Shown piece after piece: positions 1,926 through 33,807 of a DNA stretch of 41,285 bases; the stretch's first letter is position 1, and each line of letters starts with the position of its first letter. The DNA comes from a virus, in IMG/VR virus record IMGVR_UViG_3300047472_000439, positions 1 through 41,285 of that record; one strand, given 5' to 3'. The notes under the pieces are model-generated. The model was not told where the DNA came from. It saw only the letters and a list, made by a program, of their open reading frames with translations, and ran no database searches. The translations under genes were made by a program, and so were the position numbers.

Positions 1926-2002
1926 TGGTCGGAGTGGCAGGATTTGAACCTGCGACCCCTGCGTCCCGAACGCAGTGCTCTACCAGACTGAGCCACACTC
2001 CG
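1926..2002 (-). tRNA. tRNA-Pro(CGG), CCA encoded
   Basis: Read on the minus strand this folds as a standard cloverleaf. The acceptor CGGAGTG pairs with CACTCCG, the anticodon loop is TTCGGGA with anticodon CGG, the T arm contains GGTTCAAATCC, and the discriminator A is followed by an encoded CCA. It decodes CCG proline codons. It is divergent from the tRNA-Gln gene about 150 bp away. No duplicated fragment of it is seen elsewhere in the window. Confidence 0.95.
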
Positions 2003-2153
2003 ACTTGGAGGGCGGCTTATAGACACGCCTCGACGGTCTCGCAAGCGACAAAAAACCACCTCGAAAAAAGAAGTTCAAAGCAGCGTTGCATCCGTCCGAC
2101 TCCTGCGCTATCTCCACCGCCTCGCCGGGCCCAACGGGTCTCGCCGTTCCTGC

Positions 2154-2227
2154 TGGGGAATGGTGTAATGGTAACACTGCGGTTTTTGGTACCGTCATTC
2201 TAGGTTCGAGTCCTAGTTCCCCAGCCA
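2154..2227 (+). tRNA. tRNA-Gln(TTG), CCA encoded; likely the host side of the left prophage junction
   Basis: The acceptor TGGGGAA pairs with TTCCCCA. The anticodon arm is GCGGT/ACCGT with loop TTTTGGT, giving anticodon TTG. The T arm contains GGTTCGAGTCC and the 3' end is GCCA. The gene is intact. Its 3' end faces the prophage, and the integrase gene about 0.7 kb away is transcribed towards it. That is the usual arrangement when a tRNA 3' end serves as attachment site. Its use as attB here is inference. Confidence 0.95.
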
Positions 2228-2276
2228 CTCTCTTTTCAATGACTTAGCTAACGCCCTACGGGGCCCGCCTGGGCCT

Positions 2277-2297
2277 GGTTTACAGGGTGGTTTACAG
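2277..2297. repeat. Tandem GGTTTACAG pair, possible integrase arm sites
   Basis: GGTTTACAG occurs at 2277-2285 and again at 2289-2297, a 12-bp period, 50 bp downstream of tRNA-Gln. This is the expected place for arm-type or core integrase binding sites near attL. No protein-binding evidence exists. The stretch 2228-2382 contains no gene that I can support. Confidence 0.35.
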
Positions 2298-2382
2298 CTT
2301 CCGCTCTCGGTATGTTCTGGCGGCCTTCTGGCCCCCCTGAAATCGACTCGACAGTTCAGGTCCCACGGCTCAACTTTTCAGC

Positions 2383-2955
2383 ATGTTGTGGGATGTCCTT
2401 TCAGAATCCGCGAGCACTGCCTGGACGATCGCCGGGACGCTGGCCACGGTCGTGATCGCGCTGGCCGGCGGTATTCTTTACCTGCGCAACGAAATGGCCG
2501 CGAGGAGCGAGCGCCGATGGGATCGCGCTTTGAAGCTCGCCGCTGTCGTCGCCGACGAGAACGCATCTGAGATAGTCAAAGATGTTGCCCGGCTGGGGCT
2601 AGAAGACATCGGCGTCGAAATCCGCGAGCGACGTGCTTCAAAGCGGGCGCCATTGATCCAAGTCGTGCTTGACGCCTTCAACGCGACCGTGACTCGGGCC
2701 GAAGTCACGGCGATCGAGAACGCGCTCGCGCCGCCTGCACCCGCCGAAGAAGTCTCACGCCGTCGTCCGATCAGCGATCCTGACATCCGTATGCTTATCG
2801 ATTGGGTCTGGAGAATTGAAGAGTCATTCGCCTTAAGCCGCGCAAGGGCCGCGCCAGAGGACGACACCCGAATCCGGATATTCTTCGTCCTGCTGATCTT
2901 TGGGTCTGCATTCTTCGTTCTGTCGGTCGGGGCGATTCACTCCGCTCTGTTTTGA
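2383..2955 (+). CDS. Two-helix membrane protein of unknown function next to attL
   Basis: 190 aa, family not recognised. A hydrophobic helix lies near residues 14-34 (TIAGTLATVVIALAGGILYL). A mostly charged cytoplasmic-looking middle of about 125 residues follows. A second strong helix lies near 165-187 (FFVLLIFGSAFFVLSVGA). The gene is convergent with the integrase gene and the two 3' ends overlap by 19 bp. Its place between tRNA and integrase, on the opposite strand to the early-left operon, is typical of lysogenic-conversion genes expressed from the prophage. Superinfection exclusion or phage defence is one possibility but nothing in the sequence proves it. Confidence 0.7.
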   Translation: MLWDVLSESASTAWTIAGTLATVVIALAGGILYLRNEMAARSERRWDRALKLAAVVADENASEIVKDVARLGLEDIGVEIRERRASKRAPLIQVVLDAFNATVTRAEVTAIENALAPPAPAEEVSRRRPISDPDIRMLIDWVWRIEESFALSRARAAPEDDTRIRIFFVLLIFGSAFFVLSVGAIHSALF

Positions 2956-4049
2956 GCCCTGGCTTTGTTCTCGCGCATGCGGCGAACGATCGCCAAGCCG
3001 ATGGCCTGGCCGCTGATGTAGCGACGGCGAATCTCTCCGACCGTCTCGCGCTTCCATCCCAAGATGACGGCGATATCGTCGTCTTCGAGTCCGCCGTGGA
3101 CCATGAAGTTGGTCGCCGCCGTGCCGCGCATGTCGTGGATGCGCAGGTGTTCGATGCCGGTCTTGGCCTCGGCTCCCTGCTGTTCCTGCACCTTCTCCAG
3201 GGCCTTACGCTTGGCGGTCTGGATGGCGCTTTCCGCGCCGGCCTCAGTCCAGGGGCGACCACGCGATGAATTCAGGACGGTGACCGAATCGCCGCGCGGG
3301 ATCGCGGCCAGGATGTCGCGCAGCGGGTCGGTGATCGGGATGACGACCGTCCGCTTGCGGTTCGACTTGCCGGTCTGAAAGACGATTGCGTCGTCGCCGA
3401 CGGCGCTCCAGGTCAGCTTGCGGATGTCGCCCAGGCGAATGCCGGTGTGGACGGCCAACTGCACGAGGTTGGCGAACGCGGGCGTGGTGTGCGCCAGCAG
3501 CAGCTCCAGGTGATGGGCTTCCCAGATGATTTCCGAGCGGTCAGGTGGGGTGTAGAGCCCTTCAACGCTCTCGATCGGGTTGGCCGACACCTCGCCCCGG
3601 TCGACCGCCCAGGCGATGACCTTGGACAGCGCGCCCAGCAGCTCGTCGGCGGTCTTGGGGGTGGCCTTGTGCTTGTCGCGCCAAGTGATCAGGACATGGC
3701 GCGCCCGCTTGCTCTCCAGCGCCCGGATTTCCATCTTGCCCAGACCCTCGCGCACCTTGTCGAGGTACTTGCGCAGGTCGCTCTTGGTTCGGGGCGCTCC
3801 AGGCATCGCCTCTAGGGCGATGAGATATCGGGTGATCAGGCCGAACAGCGTGACCTTGTCGGCGTTGTTCGACCCGGCCTCGCGGAAGGCGGTTATCGCG
3901 GCCGGCGCGGCGGCGGCGATAAGCCTGGCCAACTCGTCGTCGCCCCTTGCCGAGACCTTCAGAATCTGCGGGCCGCCGCGCCATGCGTACCAGTATTCGG
4001 TTACCTGGCCGGCCTTGCGCTTCTTCACCCGGTGCAGGCCGGGGAGCAT
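2937..4049 (-). CDS. int: Tyrosine recombinase integrase
   Basis: Site-specific recombinase that inserts and excises the phage chromosome. Numbering from the ATG at 4049 gives 370 aa. An N-terminal arm-binding segment is followed by a SAM-like core-binding domain (about residues 60-160). The catalytic domain has Arg205 in HTGIRLGDIR, Lys228 in TGKSNRKR, His305 and Arg308 in HDMRGTAA, Trp332 in place of the second His in ILGWKRE, and nucleophile Tyr344 in RRRYI. An in-frame TTG at 4076 would add nine residues. I prefer the ATG because TTG starts are rare, although neither start has a strong ribosome site. It lies last in the leftward early operon, 4 bp after the excisionase-like gene. Confidence 0.95.
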   Translation of the reverse strand: MLPGLHRVKKRKAGQVTEYWYAWRGGPQILKVSARGDDELARLIAAAAPAAITAFREAGSNNADKVTLFGLITRYLIALEAMPGAPRTKSDLRKYLDKVREGLGKMEIRALESKRARHVLITWRDKHKATPKTADELLGALSKVIAWAVDRGEVSANPIESVEGLYTPPDRSEIIWEAHHLELLLAHTTPAFANLVQLAVHTGIRLGDIRKLTWSAVGDDAIVFQTGKSNRKRTVVIPITDPLRDILAAIPRGDSVTVLNSSRGRPWTEAGAESAIQTAKRKALEKVQEQQGAEAKTGIEHLRIHDMRGTAATNFMVHGGLEDDDIAVILGWKRETVGEIRRRYISGQAIGLAIVRRMRENKARAQNRAE

Positions 4050-4053
4050 CTGG

Positions 4054-4311
4054 CTAACTGGCAATGAACCGGTCAAGGGCGGCCTCCGCGTCGTCCGCGC
4101 CCTCCATAGAAGAGGACGGCGACGGATTCGGACGCAGACCGCTCAGCGCGTCAAGCTTGGCGTCGATGGCGTAGCGGTCGTATCGGACCGAGCGGACAAG
4201 CGGCGTGCGCCCCCAACCCAGTTTCTTGAACTCGGCGACGGGGATCTTGCCGCAGTAGTCCGCAGCCTCCTCGGCCGTGAGCAAGCGGGATTGTGGGAGC
4301 GCGCTAGCCAT
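4054..4311 (-). CDS. Excisionase-like AlpA/MerR-type HTH protein
   Basis: 85 aa. The N-terminal part (LLTAEEAADYCGKIPVAEFK) is a helix-turn-helix of the AlpA/excisionase type, followed by a typical RYDRYAIDAKLD wing. Proteins of this kind bend attachment-site DNA and steer the integrase towards excision. The gene sits directly upstream of the integrase, and its start overlaps the stop of the SciP-like gene as TGATG, implying coupled translation. The C-terminal 30 residues are acidic and probably disordered. The excisionase role is inferred from fold and position. Confidence 0.75.
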   Translation of the reverse strand: MASALPQSRLLTAEEAADYCGKIPVAEFKKLGWGRTPLVRSVRYDRYAIDAKLDALSGLRPNPSPSSSMEGADDAEAALDRFIAS

Positions 4312-5835: not shown

Positions 5836-6755
5836 CACGCCGCCGCCTTTGCGGGTTCGGCGGCGACGCCCAGCATCTCGTCGGTGGCCACTTCCCAGAG
5901 AGCCCAAATCTGCTTGACGCAATCATAGACCGGGTCGTGGGCCGTGCCGGGGATGTCGAGCTTGGGGGCGGTGCGGCGCTTGGGCAGCTTGCGGCGCAGG
6001 GTGCGGTTGTCGGTGGCCGCCCAGTATTCCCACGGCGTCTTGGCGCCCGCGTCGAACATGGCCGAGGCGAGGTTGCTGAGGTCGAAGGCGATGCCCTGGG
6101 AATAGACTTCGCCCTTGGGGACGCAGTGCTGGGCTAGGTGGTGGGCGAGGCGCGGCGCGAGGAGCGCCATGGTCACGCGCTCCGGGCGCGCGCCGTCGTG
6201 GCCGACATAGGCCGGGTCGGCGAAGTGGGCGCGAGCGGCGGCGGGCTGGTCGCGCCAGAACCCGCGCGTCTTGTCGTCGATATGCCGGGTGCTCAGCAGT
6301 TGCTCCAGCAGATCGAAGACCAGCAGCAGCGGCGGGCCCATGACCGGGCCCTCTTGGGTCAGGCGGAACGGGACCACGGCCTGGCTGAGCAGGAAGGCGT
6401 TGCCGGGGTGCAGCGACAGGCTCTCGATGTCGGTCATCGCGCAAGGGAAGAGGGGTGGTGGCTCGGCGAGGGTTAGCCCGACGACGTGACCGGTGGGGCC
6501 GTCGATCTGGACGTTGGCGAAGACCACGGCGGCGTCCGCCTCGGTGCGCCACGATCCGGAGGCGACTACGTCAGCTTCGAAAACGATCGTGTTTGCGTCG
6601 AGGCTGATGATGTCGGCGTCTGGCGCGGCCGGGTTCGTTCCCGTCATGGCGGGTCCTTTCGGGTAAAGGTGGTCGAGAAGGTCGGGGCACGGGTTCGCCG
6701 CGGCGTGCTGGGCGGCGATGGCCTGGGCCAGTTGGGAAAGGGTCGGGCCGCTCAC
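5835..6755 (-). CDS. Phage protein of unknown function, 306 aa
   Basis: Starts at GTG 6755, overlapping the upstream stop as GTGA. An in-frame ATG at 6647 would give a 270-aa product. No family is recognised. The middle (about 50-170) is strand-rich and holds [20 protein letters not shown], followed by helical segments and a basic patch ([15 protein letters not shown]) near residue 260. It is the largest unknown of the leftward early operon and lies immediately upstream of, and translationally coupled to, the GapR-FtsK-gamma gene. Confidence 0.65.
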
Positions 6756-10701: not shown

Positions 10702-11384
10702 TGAGGGTGCTTGTCGCGTGTGAATATAGCGGCACGGTAAGGAACGCGTTCGCGGCCTTGGGGCATGACGCTTGGTCGGTCGACCTGCTGCCGTCGGACG
10801 ATGGGAGCAACCGCCATATCCAAGGCGACGCGCGGACGGTGCTGAACGACGGGTGGGACCTGTTGATGGTCGCGCATCCGCCCTGCACCCGCCTGTGCAA
10901 CTCCGGCATCTGCTGGCTGACCCGGCCGCCCAAGGGCAAGACGGTTGAACAGGTCTGGGCCGAGTTGGACGAAGCGGCGGCGCTGTTCTCGGCGTTCTGG
11001 TCTGCACCCATCGAGCGCATCGCCATCGAAAACCCCATCATGCATCGGCATGCGAAGGCGCGGATCGGCAACTATCGTCCGCCCGCGCAAACCGTCATGC
11101 CCTGGCAGTTCGGCGACCCTGTTCAGAAGAAGGTTTGCCTCTGGCTCAAGAACCTGCCGGCGCTCCGGGCGACGAACGTCGTCGCACTACCCGAGCCCAG
11201 CTACGTTCTACGAAAGACGGGCCCGCGCGCCGGGAAGCCGTACCGCTACTACTTCCATCAGGGCAGGTCGGGCCATGAACGGTCCCGGTTCTTCCCGGGC
11301 ATTGCCGCCGCGATGGCGGAGCAATGGGGCGACCTCGACGGGATGACGCCCGTTCAACGCGACCTCTTCGAGGTGGCGGCATGA
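10701..11384 (+). CDS. C5-cytosine-methyltransferase-like protein
   Basis: 227 aa from ATG 10701 (TGATG overlap). Motif I is MRVLVACEYSGTVRNAFAAL, followed by an acidic SVDLLPSD. Motif IV is MVAHPPCTRLCNSG with a PPC cysteine, and motif VI is IAIENPIMHRH. These are the core marks of C5-type DNA methyltransferases. It is far shorter than a full enzyme (usually above 300 aa) and I see no distinct target-recognition domain. Related short proteins are frequent in phages; whether they methylate DNA is uncertain. Expected roles are protection against host restriction or base modification. It lies among replication genes. Confidence 0.8.
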   Translation: MRVLVACEYSGTVRNAFAALGHDAWSVDLLPSDDGSNRHIQGDARTVLNDGWDLLMVAHPPCTRLCNSGICWLTRPPKGKTVEQVWAELDEAAALFSAFWSAPIERIAIENPIMHRHAKARIGNYRPPAQTVMPWQFGDPVQKKVCLWLKNLPALRATNVVALPEPSYVLRKTGPRAGKPYRYYFHQGRSGHERSRFFPGIAAAMAEQWGDLDGMTPVQRDLFEVAA

Positions 11385-12250
11385 CGGACGTCGAAACCCC
11401 GGCCGCCGTCATGGCCCGCATCGAGGCGCACCTGTGGGACGTGTTCGCCACGGGCGCGAACCCCTGGCGGGCCGGCGGCGTGCTGCTGGCCAAGCGCCTG
11501 GGCATGACGGCCGAGGTGGCCTTGCGCGGCGTGACCGAGCTGGGCGGCGGCTTCGCGCGCGTGGTGCAGCAGGAAGACGATCCGCGCCGTTTCCGACTCG
11601 CTGCTACGGCCGAGCGCGAGAAGGCGACGCCAGCCCTGATCCTGCCGCGCCGTCTAGACGGCGACGACGCCGACCTGATCGCCTTCAGCCTGACGCCTGA
11701 CAGCCGCCGGTTCTGGCGCTGCACCTGCAAGGCGACGCATCTGGGCGAACCCGACTTCGGGCCCGGCGGCGCGCTGCTGCTGCGGCAGGACGCGCACGCC
11801 TATGTCGGACGCATGCTGAAGGCGGCCTGGGCTAGCGGGCGGTCGATCGAAGACCGCGAGGACATCCTGGCCAGGGGCTTCGCGGCGGCGCGCGTGGCCG
11901 GCGGCTTCGCCAACATGGAAGAGGCCTTGGCCCAGCCCGCCGAGGATCTGCATCGCCGGGCCTATCTGCGCGGCGTGGTCGCGGCGCGGCGGGCGGCGAC
12001 TTCGGCGGCCCAGCGCTGGGCGGTCGAGATGCGCCCGCCGGAGGGCGTGCTGGTGCTGGACCCGGTCGCCATCAACTGGACCCGGCGCGGCGCGCTGGCC
12101 GAGGCCGAGGCCATCGAGATCGTCGACGCGCCAGCGAACGGCGGCCTAGGCCGCGCGCTGCGGCGTCTGAACACCACCATCGGCACGCCGCGCGGCGTGC
12201 CTCTGTACGGCGTCGAGGCCCAGGCCCTGGCGCGAGGGAGGGCGGCGTGA
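11381..12250 (+). CDS. Early protein of unknown function upstream of the helicase
   Basis: 289 aa from ATG 11381 (ATGA overlap with the methyltransferase-like gene). The N-terminal 60 residues suggest a winged helix (GGVLLAKRLGMTAEVALRGV). The middle has FWRCTCKATHLGEPDFGPGG, which might be part of a metal site, and the C-terminal part is helical and arginine-rich. Its stop overlaps the helicase start, so it may be a replication partner such as a primase subunit or loader, but no motif confirms this. It contains palindrome copy 2. Confidence 0.55.
   Translation: MTDVETPAAVMARIEAHLWDVFATGANPWRAGGVLLAKRLGMTAEVALRGVTELGGGFARVVQQEDDPRRFRLAATAEREKATPALILPRRLDGDDADLIAFSLTPDSRRFWRCTCKATHLGEPDFGPGGALLLRQDAHAYVGRMLKAAWASGRSIEDREDILARGFAAARVAGGFANMEEALAQPAEDLHRRAYLRGVVAARRAATSAAQRWAVEMRPPEGVLVLDPVAINWTRRGALAEAEAIEIVDAPANGGLGRALRRLNTTIGTPRGVPLYGVEAQALARGRAA
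11651..11660. repeat. Palindrome CGTCTAGACG, copy 2 (extends to 16 bp)
   Basis: Inside the 289-aa gene. The symmetry continues outwards to 11648-11663 (CGCCGTCTAGACGGCG), the longest of the four copies. Confidence 0.6.
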
Positions 12251-13848
12251 GTAACGACCCATTCGAAGGCCTCGACGAAGGCAACTACTTCCGCGACGAC
12301 GGCGAGGCCGTGGACGCGCCCAAGGCGGGCGCCCTGAAGGCCATCGTCGGCGGGCTGGAGCCGACGCCGCTGGACGTGAAGCTGTGCGCGCTGCCGCAGA
12401 ACGACCTTGGCAACGCCAAGCGCCTGGGCCTGCGCAACGAAGACCTGATCTGGTGGACCAAGGAGTGGGGAGCGGGTGCGTGGGACGGCCGGCGGTTCGA
12501 CTTCCGCGCGGGCGAGGCGGCGGCGGGGCGGATGGCCCAGGCCACGGCCGAGCGCATGCTGAGCCATGAGGTGACGGCCTTCTACCAGACCCAGCAGGGC
12601 CCGAGGGAGCCGCAGGGCGATTTCGAGAAGCGCGCGGCCGGGTTCTATGGCTGGGCGGTGCAGGCCGGGAACAACGGCCGAACCGAGGGCATGCTGAAGC
12701 AAGCCGAGCGGCGGGCGACGCGCCTGCTGGCCGACTTCGACGCCGATCCGGACAAGCTGGCCGTGGCCAACGGAACGTTGGTGTTGCCGCAGGATGGCTC
12801 GGACCATCGCTTCACGCCCAGGCACGACCCGGCCGACCTGATGACCGTCTGCGGCTCGGCGGTCTACGATCCCGGCGCGCGCTGTCCGCACTTCGACGCC
12901 TTTCTGGCCAAGGTGCAGCCCGACGCGGAGGTGCGCGCCTTCCTGGCCCGCATCATCGGCTATTGCATGACGGGGCAGATCGGAGAGCAGGCCTATTTCA
13001 TTTTCCAGGGCAAGGGAGGCGACGGCAAGTCGACCTTCCTGTCCGGGATCGAGGCGGCGCTGGGCGACCTGGTGGCGAACGCCAGCATCGACACGTTCCT
13101 GCACCGCGACCGCAAGGGCAGCGACCACTCGGCCGACGTGGCGCGCCTGGCCAGCGGCGTGCGGCTGGTCAAGGCCAGCGAGCCGGAGCAGGGCGCGCGG
13201 CTGGCCGAGTCGGTGCTGAAGGTGGTGACGGGCGGCGAGCCCTTCCCGGCGCGGGCCATGTATCGCGAGCCGTTCGAGTTCATCGCGCGGTGGAAGCTGA
13301 TCATCAGCTGTAATCGCAAGCCGCAGATCCGGGGCGATGACCGTGGCATCTGGCGGCGCACGCTGGTCGTGCCGTGGCCGGTGTCGATCGCCAAGGAAGA
13401 CATGGACAAGACCTTGGTCGCCAAACTCCAGGCCGAGGCCAGCGGCATCCTCAATTGGGCGCTGCGGGGCTGGGCCGATTGGCTGGAGCAGGGGCTAGCG
13501 CCGCCCAAGGCGGTGCTCGACGCGATCGAGGAATACAAGCTGAACTCCAACCCGTTCGGCGCGTGGTTCGATGGCTGCTGCATCCCTCACGACAAGCTCA
13601 GCGAGCGGTCGGACAAGCTCTATCGGTCCTACACGGGGTGGGTCACGGAAGGCGGCTTCCAGGCCATGACGCGCACCGCCTTCGGCAAGGCGCTGTCGGA
13701 TCGCAACCTTGTGCGGGGGCGCTCGAACGGGATCGTCTGGCATGGCGTCGGCCTGAACGACGCGGGCGAAGAGGCCATCCGCTCGGCTGACCACGCCGAC
13801 GACGAGGCCCGCTATGGCCGCCGCGACTACGGACCCGACCCCGACTGA
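12247..13848 (+). CDS. D5/P4-type SF3 replicative helicase
   Basis: 533 aa from GTG 12247. It has a D5_N-like N-terminal region, followed by the SF3 helicase core: Walker A FIFQGKGGDGKST near residues 251-263, Walker B-like LVKASEPEQG, and motif C LIISCNRKPQIRG. A C-terminal winged region (FGKALSDRNLVRGRSNG) ends the protein. Such proteins unwind phage or plasmid origins. No obvious primase active site is seen in the N-terminal part, so priming may come from another protein. It is the last gene of the rightward early operon, directly upstream of the iteron cluster. Confidence 0.9.
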   Translation: MSNDPFEGLDEGNYFRDDGEAVDAPKAGALKAIVGGLEPTPLDVKLCALPQNDLGNAKRLGLRNEDLIWWTKEWGAGAWDGRRFDFRAGEAAAGRMAQATAERMLSHEVTAFYQTQQGPREPQGDFEKRAAGFYGWAVQAGNNGRTEGMLKQAERRATRLLADFDADPDKLAVANGTLVLPQDGSDHRFTPRHDPADLMTVCGSAVYDPGARCPHFDAFLAKVQPDAEVRAFLARIIGYCMTGQIGEQAYFIFQGKGGDGKSTFLSGIEAALGDLVANASIDTFLHRDRKGSDHSADVARLASGVRLVKASEPEQGARLAESVLKVVTGGEPFPARAMYREPFEFIARWKLIISCNRKPQIRGDDRGIWRRTLVVPWPVSIAKEDMDKTLVAKLQAEASGILNWALRGWADWLEQGLAPPKAVLDAIEEYKLNSNPFGAWFDGCCIPHDKLSERSDKLYRSYTGWVTEGGFQAMTRTAFGKALSDRNLVRGRSNGIVWHGVGLNDAGEEAIRSADHADDEARYGRRDYGPDPD

Positions 13849-13928
13849 CGGAACGGTTTTGGAACGGTTTTGGAACCGTTCCGGAATGGTTCGGCTCAGC
13901 CGCGGCATATTATAGATGAATAAAACCA

Positions 13929-13942
13929 ATGGCTTAAGCCAT
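13929..13942. repeat. 14-bp palindrome in the candidate origin
   Basis: ATGGCTTAAGCCAT is perfectly symmetric and sits between the AT-rich stretch and the tandem iterons at 13947-13964. It could be a protein site or cruciform in origin melting. Confidence 0.5.
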
Positions 13943-13978
13943 CGGCGGAACGGTTGGAACGGTTGGCCTTGGGTTTAT

Positions 13979-13990
13979 GTGTGCGCACAC
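13979..13990. repeat. 12-bp palindrome GTGTGCGCACAC
   Basis: A perfect palindrome downstream of the tandem iterons, in the non-coding gap between helicase and next gene. It is a possible regulator site; it shares no sequence with the immunity operator beyond GTGT/ACAC ends. Confidence 0.4.
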
Positions 13991-14084
13991 CCGCTCACGC
14001 ACAAGGATTGAAATAACAGTTCCAACCGTTCCACCAGGAAGGCTCTTCGAGAAGTAAGTGAAAGTAATTCAAGGGGTTATCGGG

Positions 14085-14738
14085 ATGGCAAAGCAAGGCA
14101 AGAAAACGGAAACCGTTCCTACCACCGTTCCGGACGTGGCCCAGCCGCCCCGCCGCATCCTCAAGGCCGGGGTCGTGGCCGTGGCCGAGTGGAACCGCCT
14201 GCGCAACGAGGCCATCGCCGAGGCTGAGGCGATGCGGCAGGAAGCGGCCGAGCGCGAGGCCAAGGCCACCGAGTATGGCCTGATCGCGGCCGAGCGGGCG
14301 GCTAAGCGCCAGGGCGTGAAGGTCGAGCGTGATGAACCGCGCGGACCCATCATCGCCGCCCGCGACGGTCTGCTGTGGCTGGTGCGCAAGGGCAAGGTGT
14401 TGCCGGTGCATGAGCGGGCCGGTCTGCGGTTCCGGCAGGACTATGAGCGCGCCACCTCGGACGGCCTGGGTTCGTCGCTCGGCATGCAGGCCGGCGGCGG
14501 CTATGGTCCTAAGTCGGGCGCGACGGAAGAACAGATCCGGGCGCGGCAGGCGGTCAAGGAGGCCCTGGCTTCGCTCAGCTCGCCGATGCTGCGCCCCTAT
14601 ATCGAGGAGGTCGCGGGCCGTGGTGAGATGCTGAGCGGGCCGGTGTTCGGGGGCGACGCGCGGCGGGTCGGCGATCACCTCTTGCCCTGCGTCATCGCCC
14701 TGGACGCCCTGGCGCGGCACTATGGGATGATCCGCTGA
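14085..14738 (+). CDS. DUF6456-like protein, putative DNA-binding regulator
   Basis: 217 aa from ATG 14085, with AAGGGG eight bases upstream; a GTG at 14058 lacks this site. Residues about 45-80 are a charged coiled coil. The C-terminal 120 residues (ERAGLRFRQDYERA, then GATEEQIRARQAVKEAL, then LPCVIALDALARHYGM) resemble the DUF6456 domain of alphaproteobacterial HTH proteins. Two iteron copies lie in its first codons, so it may bind the origin region and regulate itself or replication. The family call is moderate and the function is inferred. It is followed by a terminator, separating early from late genes. Confidence 0.6.
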   Translation: MAKQGKKTETVPTTVPDVAQPPRRILKAGVVAVAEWNRLRNEAIAEAEAMRQEAAEREAKATEYGLIAAERAAKRQGVKVERDEPRGPIIAARDGLLWLVRKGKVLPVHERAGLRFRQDYERATSDGLGSSLGMQAGGGYGPKSGATEEQIRARQAVKEALASLSSPMLRPYIEEVAGRGEMLSGPVFGGDARRVGDHLLPCVIALDALARHYGMIR

Positions 14739-15287: not shown

Positions 15288-15381
15288 TCAGAGTCTGCAA
15301 CCTTTTCGGAGAAGACCGGCGGGGTAAGGACGAAAAAAACGCCGCGTTATTTTCGCCAGAAGTTTTTTTATGGAGGGTCCG

Positions 15382-16021: not shown

Positions 16022-17800
16022 ATGACCGTCGGGCATGGGCCGGGCGGAGAGGTCTCGGCCGCCGCCATGCTCAAGGCGCACCCGGAAGGGCTGGACCCGC
16101 TGCCGTCCTGGCTGCGGGAGGTCGAGGACGACGAGATCTATGAATGGGCCGTCCTGGCCCATCGCCGGGCGGCTGCGGTCGAGGGCGCGTGGTTCGACCA
16201 CCAGTTGGCCGACGGCGTCGTGGCCGAGTGGTCGAACTGGGCGACGCTGACCACCGACCGGTTCGCGGGCAAGAAGTTCAAGCTGCTGCCGTGGCAAGAG
16301 CTGATCGTCCGCCTGCTGGTCGGGTGGACGGCTCCGGTCGAGGTGCTGGACGCCGAGACCCATCTGCCGACGGTCGAGCATGTGAGGATCTTCCGCCGCC
16401 TCTTGCTGTGGATCCCGCGCAAGAACGGCAAGACCGAGTTCCTGGCGGCGCTGACCCTGCTGTTCTTCACCCTGGACGGGCTGATCGGCGGCGAGGGCTA
16501 CGTGTTCGCCCGCGACGAGACCCAGGCCCGCGTCGTCTTCGACAAGATGAAGACGATGATCGCCAACAGCGACGATCTGCGCTCGGCGGCCATCGCCTAC
16601 AACAAGTCGATCTTCTTCAAGGAACTGCGCGCGGCGATCACGCTGCTGACGGGCGCGGCCGACGGGAAGCACGGCAAGGGCCCGACGGTCATCGTCGGCG
16701 ACGAAATCCACGAATGGCGCTCGCTGGAGCTGGCCAACCACCTGCGGCAGGGGACCGGCGGTCGCCTGCAACCGATCGAGCTATACGCCTCGACCACGGG
16801 CAAGAAGTCCAACGCCGTCGGGACCCAGGTCTGGGACGAAAGCCGCGCCATCCTGGATGGTCGGATCTCGGACCCGGCGACCTTGGTCGTGATTTTCGCC
16901 GCGCCGCCCGATGCGGACTTCCGCGACGAGGCGGTCTGGCGTCTGGCCAACCCGTCGCTCGGCCTGTCGCCGACGCTGGCGTACCTGCGGCGCGAGGCGG
17001 CGCTGTGTGTCGATAACCTGCGGCAGGAAGCCTACTTCAGGTGCTTCCACCTCAATCAGTGGATCGACGCGCACGTCCGTTGGCTGAACGTCAAGAAGTG
17101 GGACGCCTGCACCGACGACGCCACGGCGTGGAAGACCTATCCCGAGCGGCTGCGTAATCGCCGCTGCTGGGGCGCGGCCGACATCTCGTCGACCAAGGAC
17201 GTCACCGCTCTGGTGTGGCTGTTCGAGCCGACCGAGGACGATCCCAAGTGGCGCATCCTGCCGCGCTTCTGGGTTCCCGAGGACACCATGGCCCAGCGGG
17301 TCAAAGAGGATCGGGTCGACTACGACAAGTACGTGGCGGCCGGGGCGATGGAGACCACGCCCGGCGACGCGGTCGACCAGAACTATGTCCTGCGGGCGAT
17401 CCTCGAAGGGCTGGAGATGTTCGACGTCGTGGCCGTGGGCTACGACCCGTGGAACGCGACCAAGCTGGTTGGTGATCTCCAGGCCGAGGGCGTGGACGTC
17501 GCGCTGCTGGTGAAGATGCGCCAGGGCGTCCAGACGCTCGGCGAGCCGTCCAAGCACTTCGAGCGTCTGGTCTATGCGGGCCAGCTCGATCACGGCGGCC
17601 ACCCGGTGTTGCGCTGGATGGCGGGCAACGTCGTCGTCCGCTTCGACGAGAACCTGAACTTCATGCCGGCCAAGAAGCGGTCGGCGGAAAAAATCGACGG
17701 CATCGTGGCGGGCGTCATGGCGACGGGTCTGGCCCTGTGCGCGGCGAACGATGACGACGGCTTTGACGACTTCCTCAAGAGCGTGGGCGCGGCGGCATGA
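16022..17800 (+). CDS. Terminase large subunit
   Basis: 592 aa packaging motor and nuclease. The ATPase domain has Walker A IPRKNGKTEF (about 131-140) and Walker B TVIVGDEIHEW (about 222-232). The RNase H-like nuclease domain has its first acidic residue in AADISSTKDVTAL (about 384) and the next in VAVGYDPWNATK (about 470), with a late acidic site in EKIDGIVAG. Length and motif spacing are normal for the Terminase_1 group of HK97-like phages. It overlaps the portal gene as ATGA. Confidence 0.95.
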   Translation: MTVGHGPGGEVSAAAMLKAHPEGLDPLPSWLREVEDDEIYEWAVLAHRRAAAVEGAWFDHQLADGVVAEWSNWATLTTDRFAGKKFKLLPWQELIVRLLVGWTAPVEVLDAETHLPTVEHVRIFRRLLLWIPRKNGKTEFLAALTLLFFTLDGLIGGEGYVFARDETQARVVFDKMKTMIANSDDLRSAAIAYNKSIFFKELRAAITLLTGAADGKHGKGPTVIVGDEIHEWRSLELANHLRQGTGGRLQPIELYASTTGKKSNAVGTQVWDESRAILDGRISDPATLVVIFAAPPDADFRDEAVWRLANPSLGLSPTLAYLRREAALCVDNLRQEAYFRCFHLNQWIDAHVRWLNVKKWDACTDDATAWKTYPERLRNRRCWGAADISSTKDVTALVWLFEPTEDDPKWRILPRFWVPEDTMAQRVKEDRVDYDKYVAAGAMETTPGDAVDQNYVLRAILEGLEMFDVVAVGYDPWNATKLVGDLQAEGVDVALLVKMRQGVQTLGEPSKHFERLVYAGQLDHGGHPVLRWMAGNVVVRFDENLNFMPAKKRSAEKIDGIVAGVMATGLALCAANDDDGFDDFLKSVGAAA

Positions 17801-31266: not shown

Positions 31267-33807
31267 ATGCCGACTCCCGTGGACGAAGCCAGCTTCGCCG
31301 AGCTGGTGGTGCGCTTCGGCCGCCTGACCGACATCTGGAAGAACTCGCTGGTCAATATCCAGGCGCTGATCGCGCTGTCGGCGGCGGCCGGGGCGGTGAC
31401 GCGGCCGACCTATGCGGACATGGTGGCCGACCTGTCGGGCGCGGACGGGTCGTGGGCGCTGGTCTGGCAAGATCCGGACCGCCTGCGCAACGGGCTCTAC
31501 ATCAAGGACGGCGCGCCTGGAGTTGGGGGCTGGGTCGCGTCGGGACTGCTGACCGAAGGCGAGCCGGGCGCGGAGGCCATGGCCGCCGAATCCGGTTTCG
31601 TCTGGGCTCTGGTCGATCCGCTGACGGATCGGGCGGCTCTCGGCGTGACGCCCAGCGGCGAGGTGGTGGCCCCGAAGTTGCTGCTGCCGGCTGGCGTGGT
31701 GAAGCCCGACAACCTGGGCGAGGCCCTGGCGGCCATGGTCGGCGCGACGATGCCGCCGGAGAGCGGCTACGCCTGGGCCCTGACCGACCCCGCGACCGGC
31801 CGGGCCGCCTTGGCCGTCACCCTCGACGGGCGGGTTGTCGCGCCGGGCCTGGCGCTGGGCGCTGAAACCGTCGGCCTTGGCAACCTCGACGACACCCTTG
31901 CCGCCTTGGTCGGGGCGTCTCTGCCGCCGGAAAGCGGCTACGTCTGGGCCCTGACCGACCCGACGACGGGCCGGGCGGCGCTGGCCATCTCGGTCGACGG
32001 CCAGATCGTCGGCAACATCGGCTTGAGCGGCGGCGGCTTCGAGACGGGTTTTGAGGCGGCCTATGACGGCCTGCTGGATCGGTCTGTTCTGCCCCGCATG
32101 AGCGATCTGGTCGACGTGAGGCCCGACGGCTTCCGCTCGGCCGACGCCACGTTCATCTCGTCGACCCAGCGCAGCGGCTACGGCTGGTCGCCGTTTCCAC
32201 GTCGCCTGACCCCGGCGCTTCGCGGCGTCAATACGACCGGTGTGGCGCTCCAGGCGAGGCGGCGCAATGGGCTGAAGATCGTCGGCCGGCGCAAGATCGG
32301 CGACTTCGATCCAACCGCCTCGGGCGTCCAGGGCACGAACTACCGTGGTCCAATGACGACCACCTCGACCTTCCCCCCGGCCGGAACCTACGCCAACGGC
32401 GACTATGTCCGCTACGTGGCCCAGGGCGGCAGCAGCGCGGCGCGGGTGATCGGCTCGGACACCTACGCGATCGGCGACGTCGCGGTCTACAACGGCGGCT
32501 CTTGGGTGCGGCAGGCCGCCCCGGTCGGCGGCGAGTACGACGGCGACTGGTTCAACGTCACGGCGGCCGGCGTCTTTGACGGGCTGAACCTGGCCATCGG
32601 CGACCGCGTGGTCTTCTACTGCGGATCGTTCACCCGCAAGTGGGTCAAGGGCCGTCCCGACAAGGGCGAGCACTTCCTGGTCGGCGAATGGAGCGCGGCG
32701 ACGGCCTTCCCGGCGTCGCCCCTGGACGGCGACCTGCACCAGGTCACGGCGGCCGGGACGCAGGGCGGCATCACGTTCGGGATCGACGACACGCTGGTGC
32801 GCCATGGCGGGGTCTGGGGCGTGGTTCCGACCACCACCATCACGTCGGTGGTGAGCGGCGCCTATGCCCATCTGACCTGCACGGCGGCGTCGGACGAGTG
32901 GGAATTCCGGCGCTCCGACAAGGCGGCCGGCTTCGTCTACCTGACGCTGAAATCCGAGGTTCAGGCCGAGCCCAAGTTGGGCGCAGTCGACGGCCTGGTC
33001 ATGTACGCCGACTCGATGGGTTTCTTCCTGGAGACCTCGGCCCAGGCGGCCTTCTCGCCGCGCCCGTTCGCCTCGCGGTCGGTGCCCAGCGCCCGGCCGC
33101 GCGAGATCCTGGGCTATCAGCGCAGCGACATCCTGACCGGCGATCCCTATCAAGGCCGGCTGCATCTGTTCTGGCACGGCCAGAACAGCGAGACCGCGCC
33201 GCAGGAAACGCTCGACTGTGTCGAACGCGGCGTTGATCTGACGGGCGTGCGCGATGGACGATTCATCGTCATGACCGTGCTGGGTCGGCGGACCATGGCC
33301 TATAACGGCTCGCGCATGGTGGTCGCCCAGCAGGAAGACCAGTTCACCGGCAACCTCGCCGGCGCGCCGATCGCCAAGCTGCCCGGCTGGTACGCCGAGC
33401 GCTTCCCCGGCCGCTGGTTCGACACGCGAGCGCAGCTCGGGGCGCGCGTGAACTCGACCCTGCCCGACCTGACGTTTCCCGGCATGACCGAGGCCCAGGT
33501 CGCGGCGACCTATGGCGTCATGCCCATGAGCTGGTGGTTCAACTATGGGGCTGTGCCCTGGGTCCCGTCGGCCCTGCACTTCGTCGGCTATCACGGCGCG
33601 GCTGGCCTGCCGAGCGGCGGGTCAAACCTCGACTACTACCTGCGCAGCGGCAACGGCGTGGTCGGCAACATCCTGGTCAAGGAGGCCGGGACCTGGGTCG
33701 AGCGCACGGCCGACGGCGGCCAGTGGACGCACATGATCATCGGCGGCGAGGGCAATGTGACCCTGGCCGCTGCGCTCAAATCCTTCATCGACGAAAAGGG
33801 CTGGTGA
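31267..33807 (+). CDS. Tail fibre with 57-residue repeats and SGNH-like C-terminal module
   Basis: 846 aa. The N-terminus (PVDEASFAELVVRFGRLTDI) would attach to the tail. Residues 108-255 hold three repeats of 57 residues built on ESGYxWALTDPxTGRAAL. After a module repeating short GDYVRYV/GDVAVYNGGSW units, the last 280 residues show SGNH-esterase-like blocks: MYADSMGF (Ser), FWHGQNSE (Asn), and VPSALHFVGYHG (His), though the Asp of the usual DxxH is not in place. It likely binds and perhaps deacylates a surface polysaccharide. The enzyme call is tentative. Confidence 0.72.
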   Translation: MPTPVDEASFAELVVRFGRLTDIWKNSLVNIQALIALSAAAGAVTRPTYADMVADLSGADGSWALVWQDPDRLRNGLYIKDGAPGVGGWVASGLLTEGEPGAEAMAAESGFVWALVDPLTDRAALGVTPSGEVVAPKLLLPAGVVKPDNLGEALAAMVGATMPPESGYAWALTDPATGRAALAVTLDGRVVAPGLALGAETVGLGNLDDTLAALVGASLPPESGYVWALTDPTTGRAALAISVDGQIVGNIGLSGGGFETGFEAAYDGLLDRSVLPRMSDLVDVRPDGFRSADATFISSTQRSGYGWSPFPRRLTPALRGVNTTGVALQARRRNGLKIVGRRKIGDFDPTASGVQGTNYRGPMTTTSTFPPAGTYANGDYVRYVAQGGSSAARVIGSDTYAIGDVAVYNGGSWVRQAAPVGGEYDGDWFNVTAAGVFDGLNLAIGDRVVFYCGSFTRKWVKGRPDKGEHFLVGEWSAATAFPASPLDGDLHQVTAAGTQGGITFGIDDTLVRHGGVWGVVPTTTITSVVSGAYAHLTCTAASDEWEFRRSDKAAGFVYLTLKSEVQAEPKLGAVDGLVMYADSMGFFLETSAQAAFSPRPFASRSVPSARPREILGYQRSDILTGDPYQGRLHLFWHGQNSETAPQETLDCVERGVDLTGVRDGRFIVMTVLGRRTMAYNGSRMVVAQQEDQFTGNLAGAPIAKLPGWYAERFPGRWFDTRAQLGARVNSTLPDLTFPGMTEAQVAATYGVMPMSWWFNYGAVPWVPSALHFVGYHGAAGLPSGGSNLDYYLRSGNGVVGNILVKEAGTWVERTADGGQWTHMIIGGEGNVTLAAALKSFIDEKGW
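31588..32031 (+). repeat. Tandem 171-bp repeats in the tail fibre gene
   Basis: The conserved unit begins at 31588, 31759 and 31930, each exactly 171 bp (57 codons) apart; the third is incomplete. Units two and three are closer to each other than to the first. Confidence 0.8.

Follow-up and report, generated by a model that had tools for sequence, protein, structure and literature searches.

A probable SaPI/PICI-type replication origin behind the helicase gene of a temperate tailed phage

What is the role of a dense cluster of short repeats that begins right behind a helicase gene in a virus genome? The 41,285 bases of the IMG/VR virus record IMGVR_UViG_3300047472_000439, analysed here at full length and called the window, carry such a cluster of the 9-mer GGAACGGTT. 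A sequence-only reading had proposed it as a candidate origin behind an SF3 helicase, and a comparative survey of repeats supports this proposal. We suggest that positions 13850–14131 are a phage replication origin of the SaPI/PICI type, which is read by the adjacent helicase, and we put the probability of this reading at about 0.87.

The iteron array and its DNA context

Seven exact copies of GGAACGGTT are present, at 13850+, 13861+, 13874−, 13947+, 13956+, 14024− and 14111−, as had been counted before. The earlier count of two near copies is to be raised to three independent ones with one mismatch (13883+, 14015− and 14123−), and a further one-mismatch copy at 13872+ overlaps the exact copy at 13874−. 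The array spans 282 bp with ten units in four blocks (Table 1). Its first unit starts two bases past the helicase stop codon, and the last two sit inside the 5′ start of the next reading frame. Blocks 1 and 2 are mainly on the plus strand and blocks 3 and 4 on the minus strand, so that two opposed iteron sets are formed; 13944–13964 and 14015–14035 make up an inverted repeat (I1) with 90% complementarity. A 9-mer scan of the window found no such cluster within any gene; a lambda-type origin would have its iterons in the initiator gene itself.

Table 1. Coordinates of the array, the helicase gene and neighbouring features; L168 is the nearest relative of the window
Feature	Positions	Strand	Description
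SF3 helicase, D5/P4 family	12247..13848	+	533 aa; D5_N, DUF5906, TIGR01613; Walker A around 255-262
Putative C-terminal winged helix, codons	13552..13755	+	residues about 436-503; proposed iteron reader by analogy with Cch2
Iteron block 1	13850..13891	+	four units, 11-bp spacing: 13850+, 13861+, 13872+/13874-, 13883+; conserved in L168
AT-rich spacer, blocks 1-2	13905..13938		candidate unwinding element
Palindrome ATGGCTTAAGCCAT	13929..13942		perfect 14-bp; not kept in L168
Iteron block 2	13947..13964	+	two abutting units, 9-bp spacing; identical in L168
Palindrome GTGTGCGCACAC	13979..13990		perfect 12-bp; not kept in L168
Lowest-stability 100 bp in the 41-kb window	14006..14105		nearest-neighbour energy profile; candidate unwinding element
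Iteron block 3	14015..14032	-	two abutting units, inverted relative to block 2; conserved in L168
Downstream gene, weakly DUF6456-like	14088..14738	+	44% identical homologue past the array in L168
Iteron block 4	14111..14131	-	two units, 12-bp spacing; within start of next gene; 15/18 bases match L168

Such recurrence of a 9-mer had been judged very unlikely to arise by chance. Over the whole window and both strands GGAACGGTT reaches 7 copies per 282 bp and the next best 9-mers reach 3. Seven copies of any 9-mer appeared in 0/150 third-order and 0/150 fifth-order Markov sequences, and in 6/150 first-order ones, for which no low-complexity filter was used.

The AT-rich DNA noticed within the cluster is also evident. 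Two stretches lie in the array: 13900–13939 is 60% AT, compared with 33% for the genome, and 14006–14105 has the lowest duplex stability of the window. The spacer between the inner blocks 2 and 3 is only 47% AT and other spacers are richer, thus the melting site is uncertain and the AT-rich stretches are only candidates. The GC skew of the window has no inflection at the array, which counts against an origin.

The repeats might instead be operators for a regulator of the downstream late or packaging genes. In favour of this, the array occupies an intergenic gap and reaches into the 5′ end of the following gene, the window has genes for regulators, and Streptococcus phage TP-778L has annotated promoter elements in the equivalent gap. 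However, an inward-oriented array of ten units, spread over four blocks and 282 bp, exceeds what is usual for operators, and the promoter scan found no promoter-like site. Moreover, in the survey described below the repeat varies with the adjacent helicase, and the array keeps to the helicase though downstream genes differ. We therefore consider operators unlikely; an additional autoregulatory role of the helicase at the array may exist. Nothing noteworthy came from the promoter, terminator and Rfam scans; the sole terminator-like match coincides with the 14-bp palindrome, read on the minus strand, and chance alone predicts matches at this rate.

Conservation of the array among helicase relatives

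Only one close relative was found, a Proteobacteria metagenome contig (L168); searches of viral contigs with one protein or a two-member alignment as query returned no close relative. The L168 helicase is 65% identical to that of the window over 484 residues. Behind it GGAACGGTT occurs at 6594, 6615, 6626, 6703, 6712 and 6782, followed by the homologue of the next gene, and in the L168 genome a tandem pair of the 9-mer is found at the array only. In the gap 69/72 iteron bases (96%) match L168, compared with 75/167 other bases (45%), a contrast somewhat favoured by the anchoring of the alignment on the repeats; the adjoining helicase coding bases match at 62%. The order of the blocks, their 11- and 9-bp spacings and their orientation agree between the two genomes independently of this anchoring.

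The perfect 14-bp and 12-bp palindromes, pointed out earlier next to the repeats, do exist. As origin elements they are set aside, since neither is conserved in L168. The window contains 18 perfect palindromes of at least 12 bp and the nearest relative keeps neither of these two, hence they carry little weight and both are probably incidental.

How general is the arrangement? The survey drew helicase relatives from viral contigs, genomes and phages, 104 loci in all, of which 80 were left once those above 80% identity were removed. With 250-bp bins, 49% of those beginning at the helicase stop have at least four copies of one 8-mer, and 0 of the twelve upstream bins do. A test with 350-bp bins used 78 non-redundant loci, with the window and L168 left out. 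The bin past the helicase stop is the unique repeat-richest one in 46/78 loci, where about 4 are expected. The check proposed by the sequence-only reading, which looks in related phages for the repeats at this position, is thereby strongly positive: besides the same 9-mer in L168, at least four exact copies of some 8-mer occur in 50/78 post-helicase bins, versus 16/1,577 other bins. By these criteria about a third of the relatives have no clear array, which counts against the origin reading.

The repeats differ between lineages (ACCCTCGC, TGGGAGGAT, GGGAGGCTA, CGGACAGTT and others), and the layout recurs. The commonest distance between consecutive same-strand copies is 9 bp (66 cases), and 127 cases fall at 8–12 bp. 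Blocks on either side of about +145 are opposed in 27 arrays and point in the same direction in 6 (p = 3e-4), the inner blocks facing each other in 27/33 arrays. The post-helicase region is GC-poorer than its surroundings, most of all at +150 to +300. Similarity of the repeats tracks similarity of the helicases (rho 0.22–0.26, reached in 0/500 permutations), and among the helicase domains, the C-terminal one included, none stood out as the better predictor of the repeat.

These data bear on the view that the cluster is a functionless chance or slipped tandem repeat. A search of viral contigs for tandem pairs of GGAACGGTT yielded 78, the majority containing only that pair, and no helicase was recognised in their available stretches; such tandem copies are common, so GGAACGGTT itself is not diagnostic. 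On the other hand, the window and L168 share the iterons despite diverged spacers, which already makes this view unlikely, and it is further opposed by the position-specific enrichment across 78 relatives and by the mixed orientation in a recurring layout. We regard it as extremely improbable. Three viral contigs (L083:2875-2967, L028:904-1011 and L068:4311-4373) contain 7–10 head-to-tail copies of GGAACGGTT with 12-, 11- and 9-bp spacing, and such a helicase was not found in their available stretches.

Individual genomes illustrate the association. In phi105, T25, phiSP119-3 and LP-HM00113468 the array fills a gap of 270–300 bp behind the helicase, and the block positions of phiSP119-3 nearly match those of the window. 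The phage-plasmid Tritonibacter p5 has the helicase and the array, as has the Methylobacterium currus plasmid unnamed3 (L210:6150-6650), which has a length of 46 kb, ParA, a type I-E CRISPR-Cas system and no structural phage genes in its annotation. A non-exhaustive scan of the unnamed3 proteins recognised no further replication protein. Plasmids with related helicases and no clear array are those of Thermaerobacter and Streptomyces, pGEOTH02 and pPL62-4. Six actinophages (L190, L191, L192, L194, L200 and L201), in which the same helicase family is followed closely downstream by DNA polymerase I, also have no clear array and may initiate replication differently; their apparent lack of it likewise counts against the origin reading.

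The same genomes speak to a DNA-packaging role, with the repeats as a cos or pac site bound by terminase. The small terminase gene of the window starts about 1.2 kb downstream of the array (TerS at 15370, TerL at 16022), and the array of Rhodobacter phage RcapNL has the helicase gene on one side and the annotated cohesive end on the other. Against this, Firmicute phages have the array at a distance from terminase genes, the four phages with a filled gap have no terminase in the annotated stretch, L168 has the array and no homologue of the window terminase in 12.5 kb, and unnamed3 carries an array without annotated structural genes. The arrays go with helicases, not with terminases; we reject a packaging site and consider it very unlikely.

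The helicase, a proposed initiation mechanism and known origins

The match of the helicase to PHROG 1156 is confined to the helicase half of this family, so that no primase is fused to it. Its AlphaFold2 model has a mean pLDDT of 92.4, and residues 436–503 follow with confidence the order helix-strand-helix-helix-strand-strand, a winged-helix-like fold; from this order of secondary structure we read the segment as a winged helix. Fold and sequence searches lead to D5-type hexameric helicases and to the SaPI5 primase-helicase (PDB 7ola). The TIGR01613 and D5_N matches, the winged-helix order and 7ola all agree with an SF3/D5-type initiator that has a C-terminal DNA-binding domain, and the helicase is likely the origin-binding initiator.

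We propose the following sequence of events. The helicase would bind the GGAACGGTT iterons via its C-terminal winged helix. Blocks 2 and 3 point toward each other; therefore, two hexamers would load face to face. These hexamers would then open AT-rich DNA that lies between the blocks or next to them, and the origin would fire in vivo with bidirectional replication, priming being provided by a separate phage or host enzyme. By analogy with the systems below, the window helicase should bind the blocks as two opposed hexamers and melt the AT-rich DNA.

The origin of SaPIs is the DNA 3′ of rep; in E. coli PICIs, where two iteron sets flank an AT-rich region, a rep-ori clone replicates, the plasmid assay having been made with EcCICFT073 (PMC6092414). 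For SaPI origins, the opposed repeats are reported to load two head-to-head hexamers (PMC9894130). The window resembles the pri-rep-ori segment of SaPI/PICI elements in the origin site directly 3′ of the rep helicase, the two opposed iteron sets and, less clearly, the AT-rich DNA, and SaPI5 has a helicase of the D5/Primase_Cterm type (PMC6092414, PMC7581432, PMC9894130). Unlike these elements, the window is a temperate phage of full size that encodes capsid, portal and terminase itself; it has four blocks, one of them inside the next gene, a different iteron sequence and no fused primase.

The D5-type helicase Cch2 of SCCmec has a putative origin behind its own gene; its C-terminal domain binds this DNA in vitro, and the binding is lost on deletion of the direct repeats (PMC7581432). 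Cch2, with D5_N/Primase_Cterm, is also a helicase without a fused primase and has its repeats right behind the gene (PMC7581432). However, it has only three 5-nt iterons and belongs to a different type of element, and the CCPol-MP primase pair of SCCmec was not found in the window.

A 302-bp noncoding origin, the PER element, serves as an independent origin upon infection in Streptococcus thermophilus phage Sfi21 (PMC6356513). It is likewise a noncoding phage origin in a replication module, and the related TP-778L has a gap behind a primase-family gene; its repeats are weak (3 exact 8-mers) and its helicase is distant from that of the window, at 22% identity. The helicase family name TIGR01613 is common to the window helicase and phage P4 alpha. 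The alpha protein is an initiator that reads short repeats; it carries a fused primase, and in P4 (ori/crr) the cis regions are separate.

The array is hence a further example of an already known origin design, and its breadth in full-size phages is more interesting. PMC6092414 presents the bipartite iteron origin as a peculiarity of PICI satellites, 'shared by ... no other known bacterial replicon'. Contrary to this description, our data suggest that the layout is widespread in full-size phages with helicases of the D5/P4 family. We consider it fairly probable that such an origin is standard for a large class of full-size phages, phage-plasmids and some plasmids with these helicases in Alphaproteobacteria and Firmicutes, the recurring four-block layout and the repeat that tracks the helicase forming a lineage-specific origin code. 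Earlier reports of such generality may exist, as the literature covered consists of open-licence papers. The earlier statement that a site after the helicase is typical of phage origins is valid for phages and satellites with a self-loading helicase of the D5/P4 type and not for phages generally. A sequence rule follows, by which phage replication origins are located directly from the helicase gene. The results also suggest that satellites and ordinary phages have one origin design, which bears on the source of PICI replicons, and the paired helicases and iterons provide material on how a winged helix reads its site.

Gene content of the window

Upstream of the helicase the window encodes an integrase, an S24-type repressor, a CII-like regulator and a DNA methyltransferase; downstream follow the weakly DUF6456-like gene, an HNH gene, the terminase subunits, portal and capsid. 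The window is a temperate tailed phage; it encodes its own terminase, portal and capsid, and is thus no PICI satellite with helper-dependent particles.

No primase gene was recognised in the window, which counts against the origin reading. The gene at 11384–12250, directly before the helicase, has no family match and a 39% identical homologue upstream of the L168 helicase. Since a separate primase is annotated upstream of the helicase in both RcapNL and RR1-A, and none is recognised in the window, this gene may be an unrecognised primase or a helicase partner.

Two minor observations concern other parts of the genome. At 1926–4076 a tRNA-Pro (minus strand) and a tRNA-Gln adjoin the integrase gene (2937–4076, minus strand); one of these tRNAs possibly serves as the attachment site, and host DNA may make up the leftmost 2 kb. 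At 31710–32011 a long structural reading frame contains a direct duplication of 131 bp (79% identical, 171 bp apart), which is probably a repeated tail-protein module.
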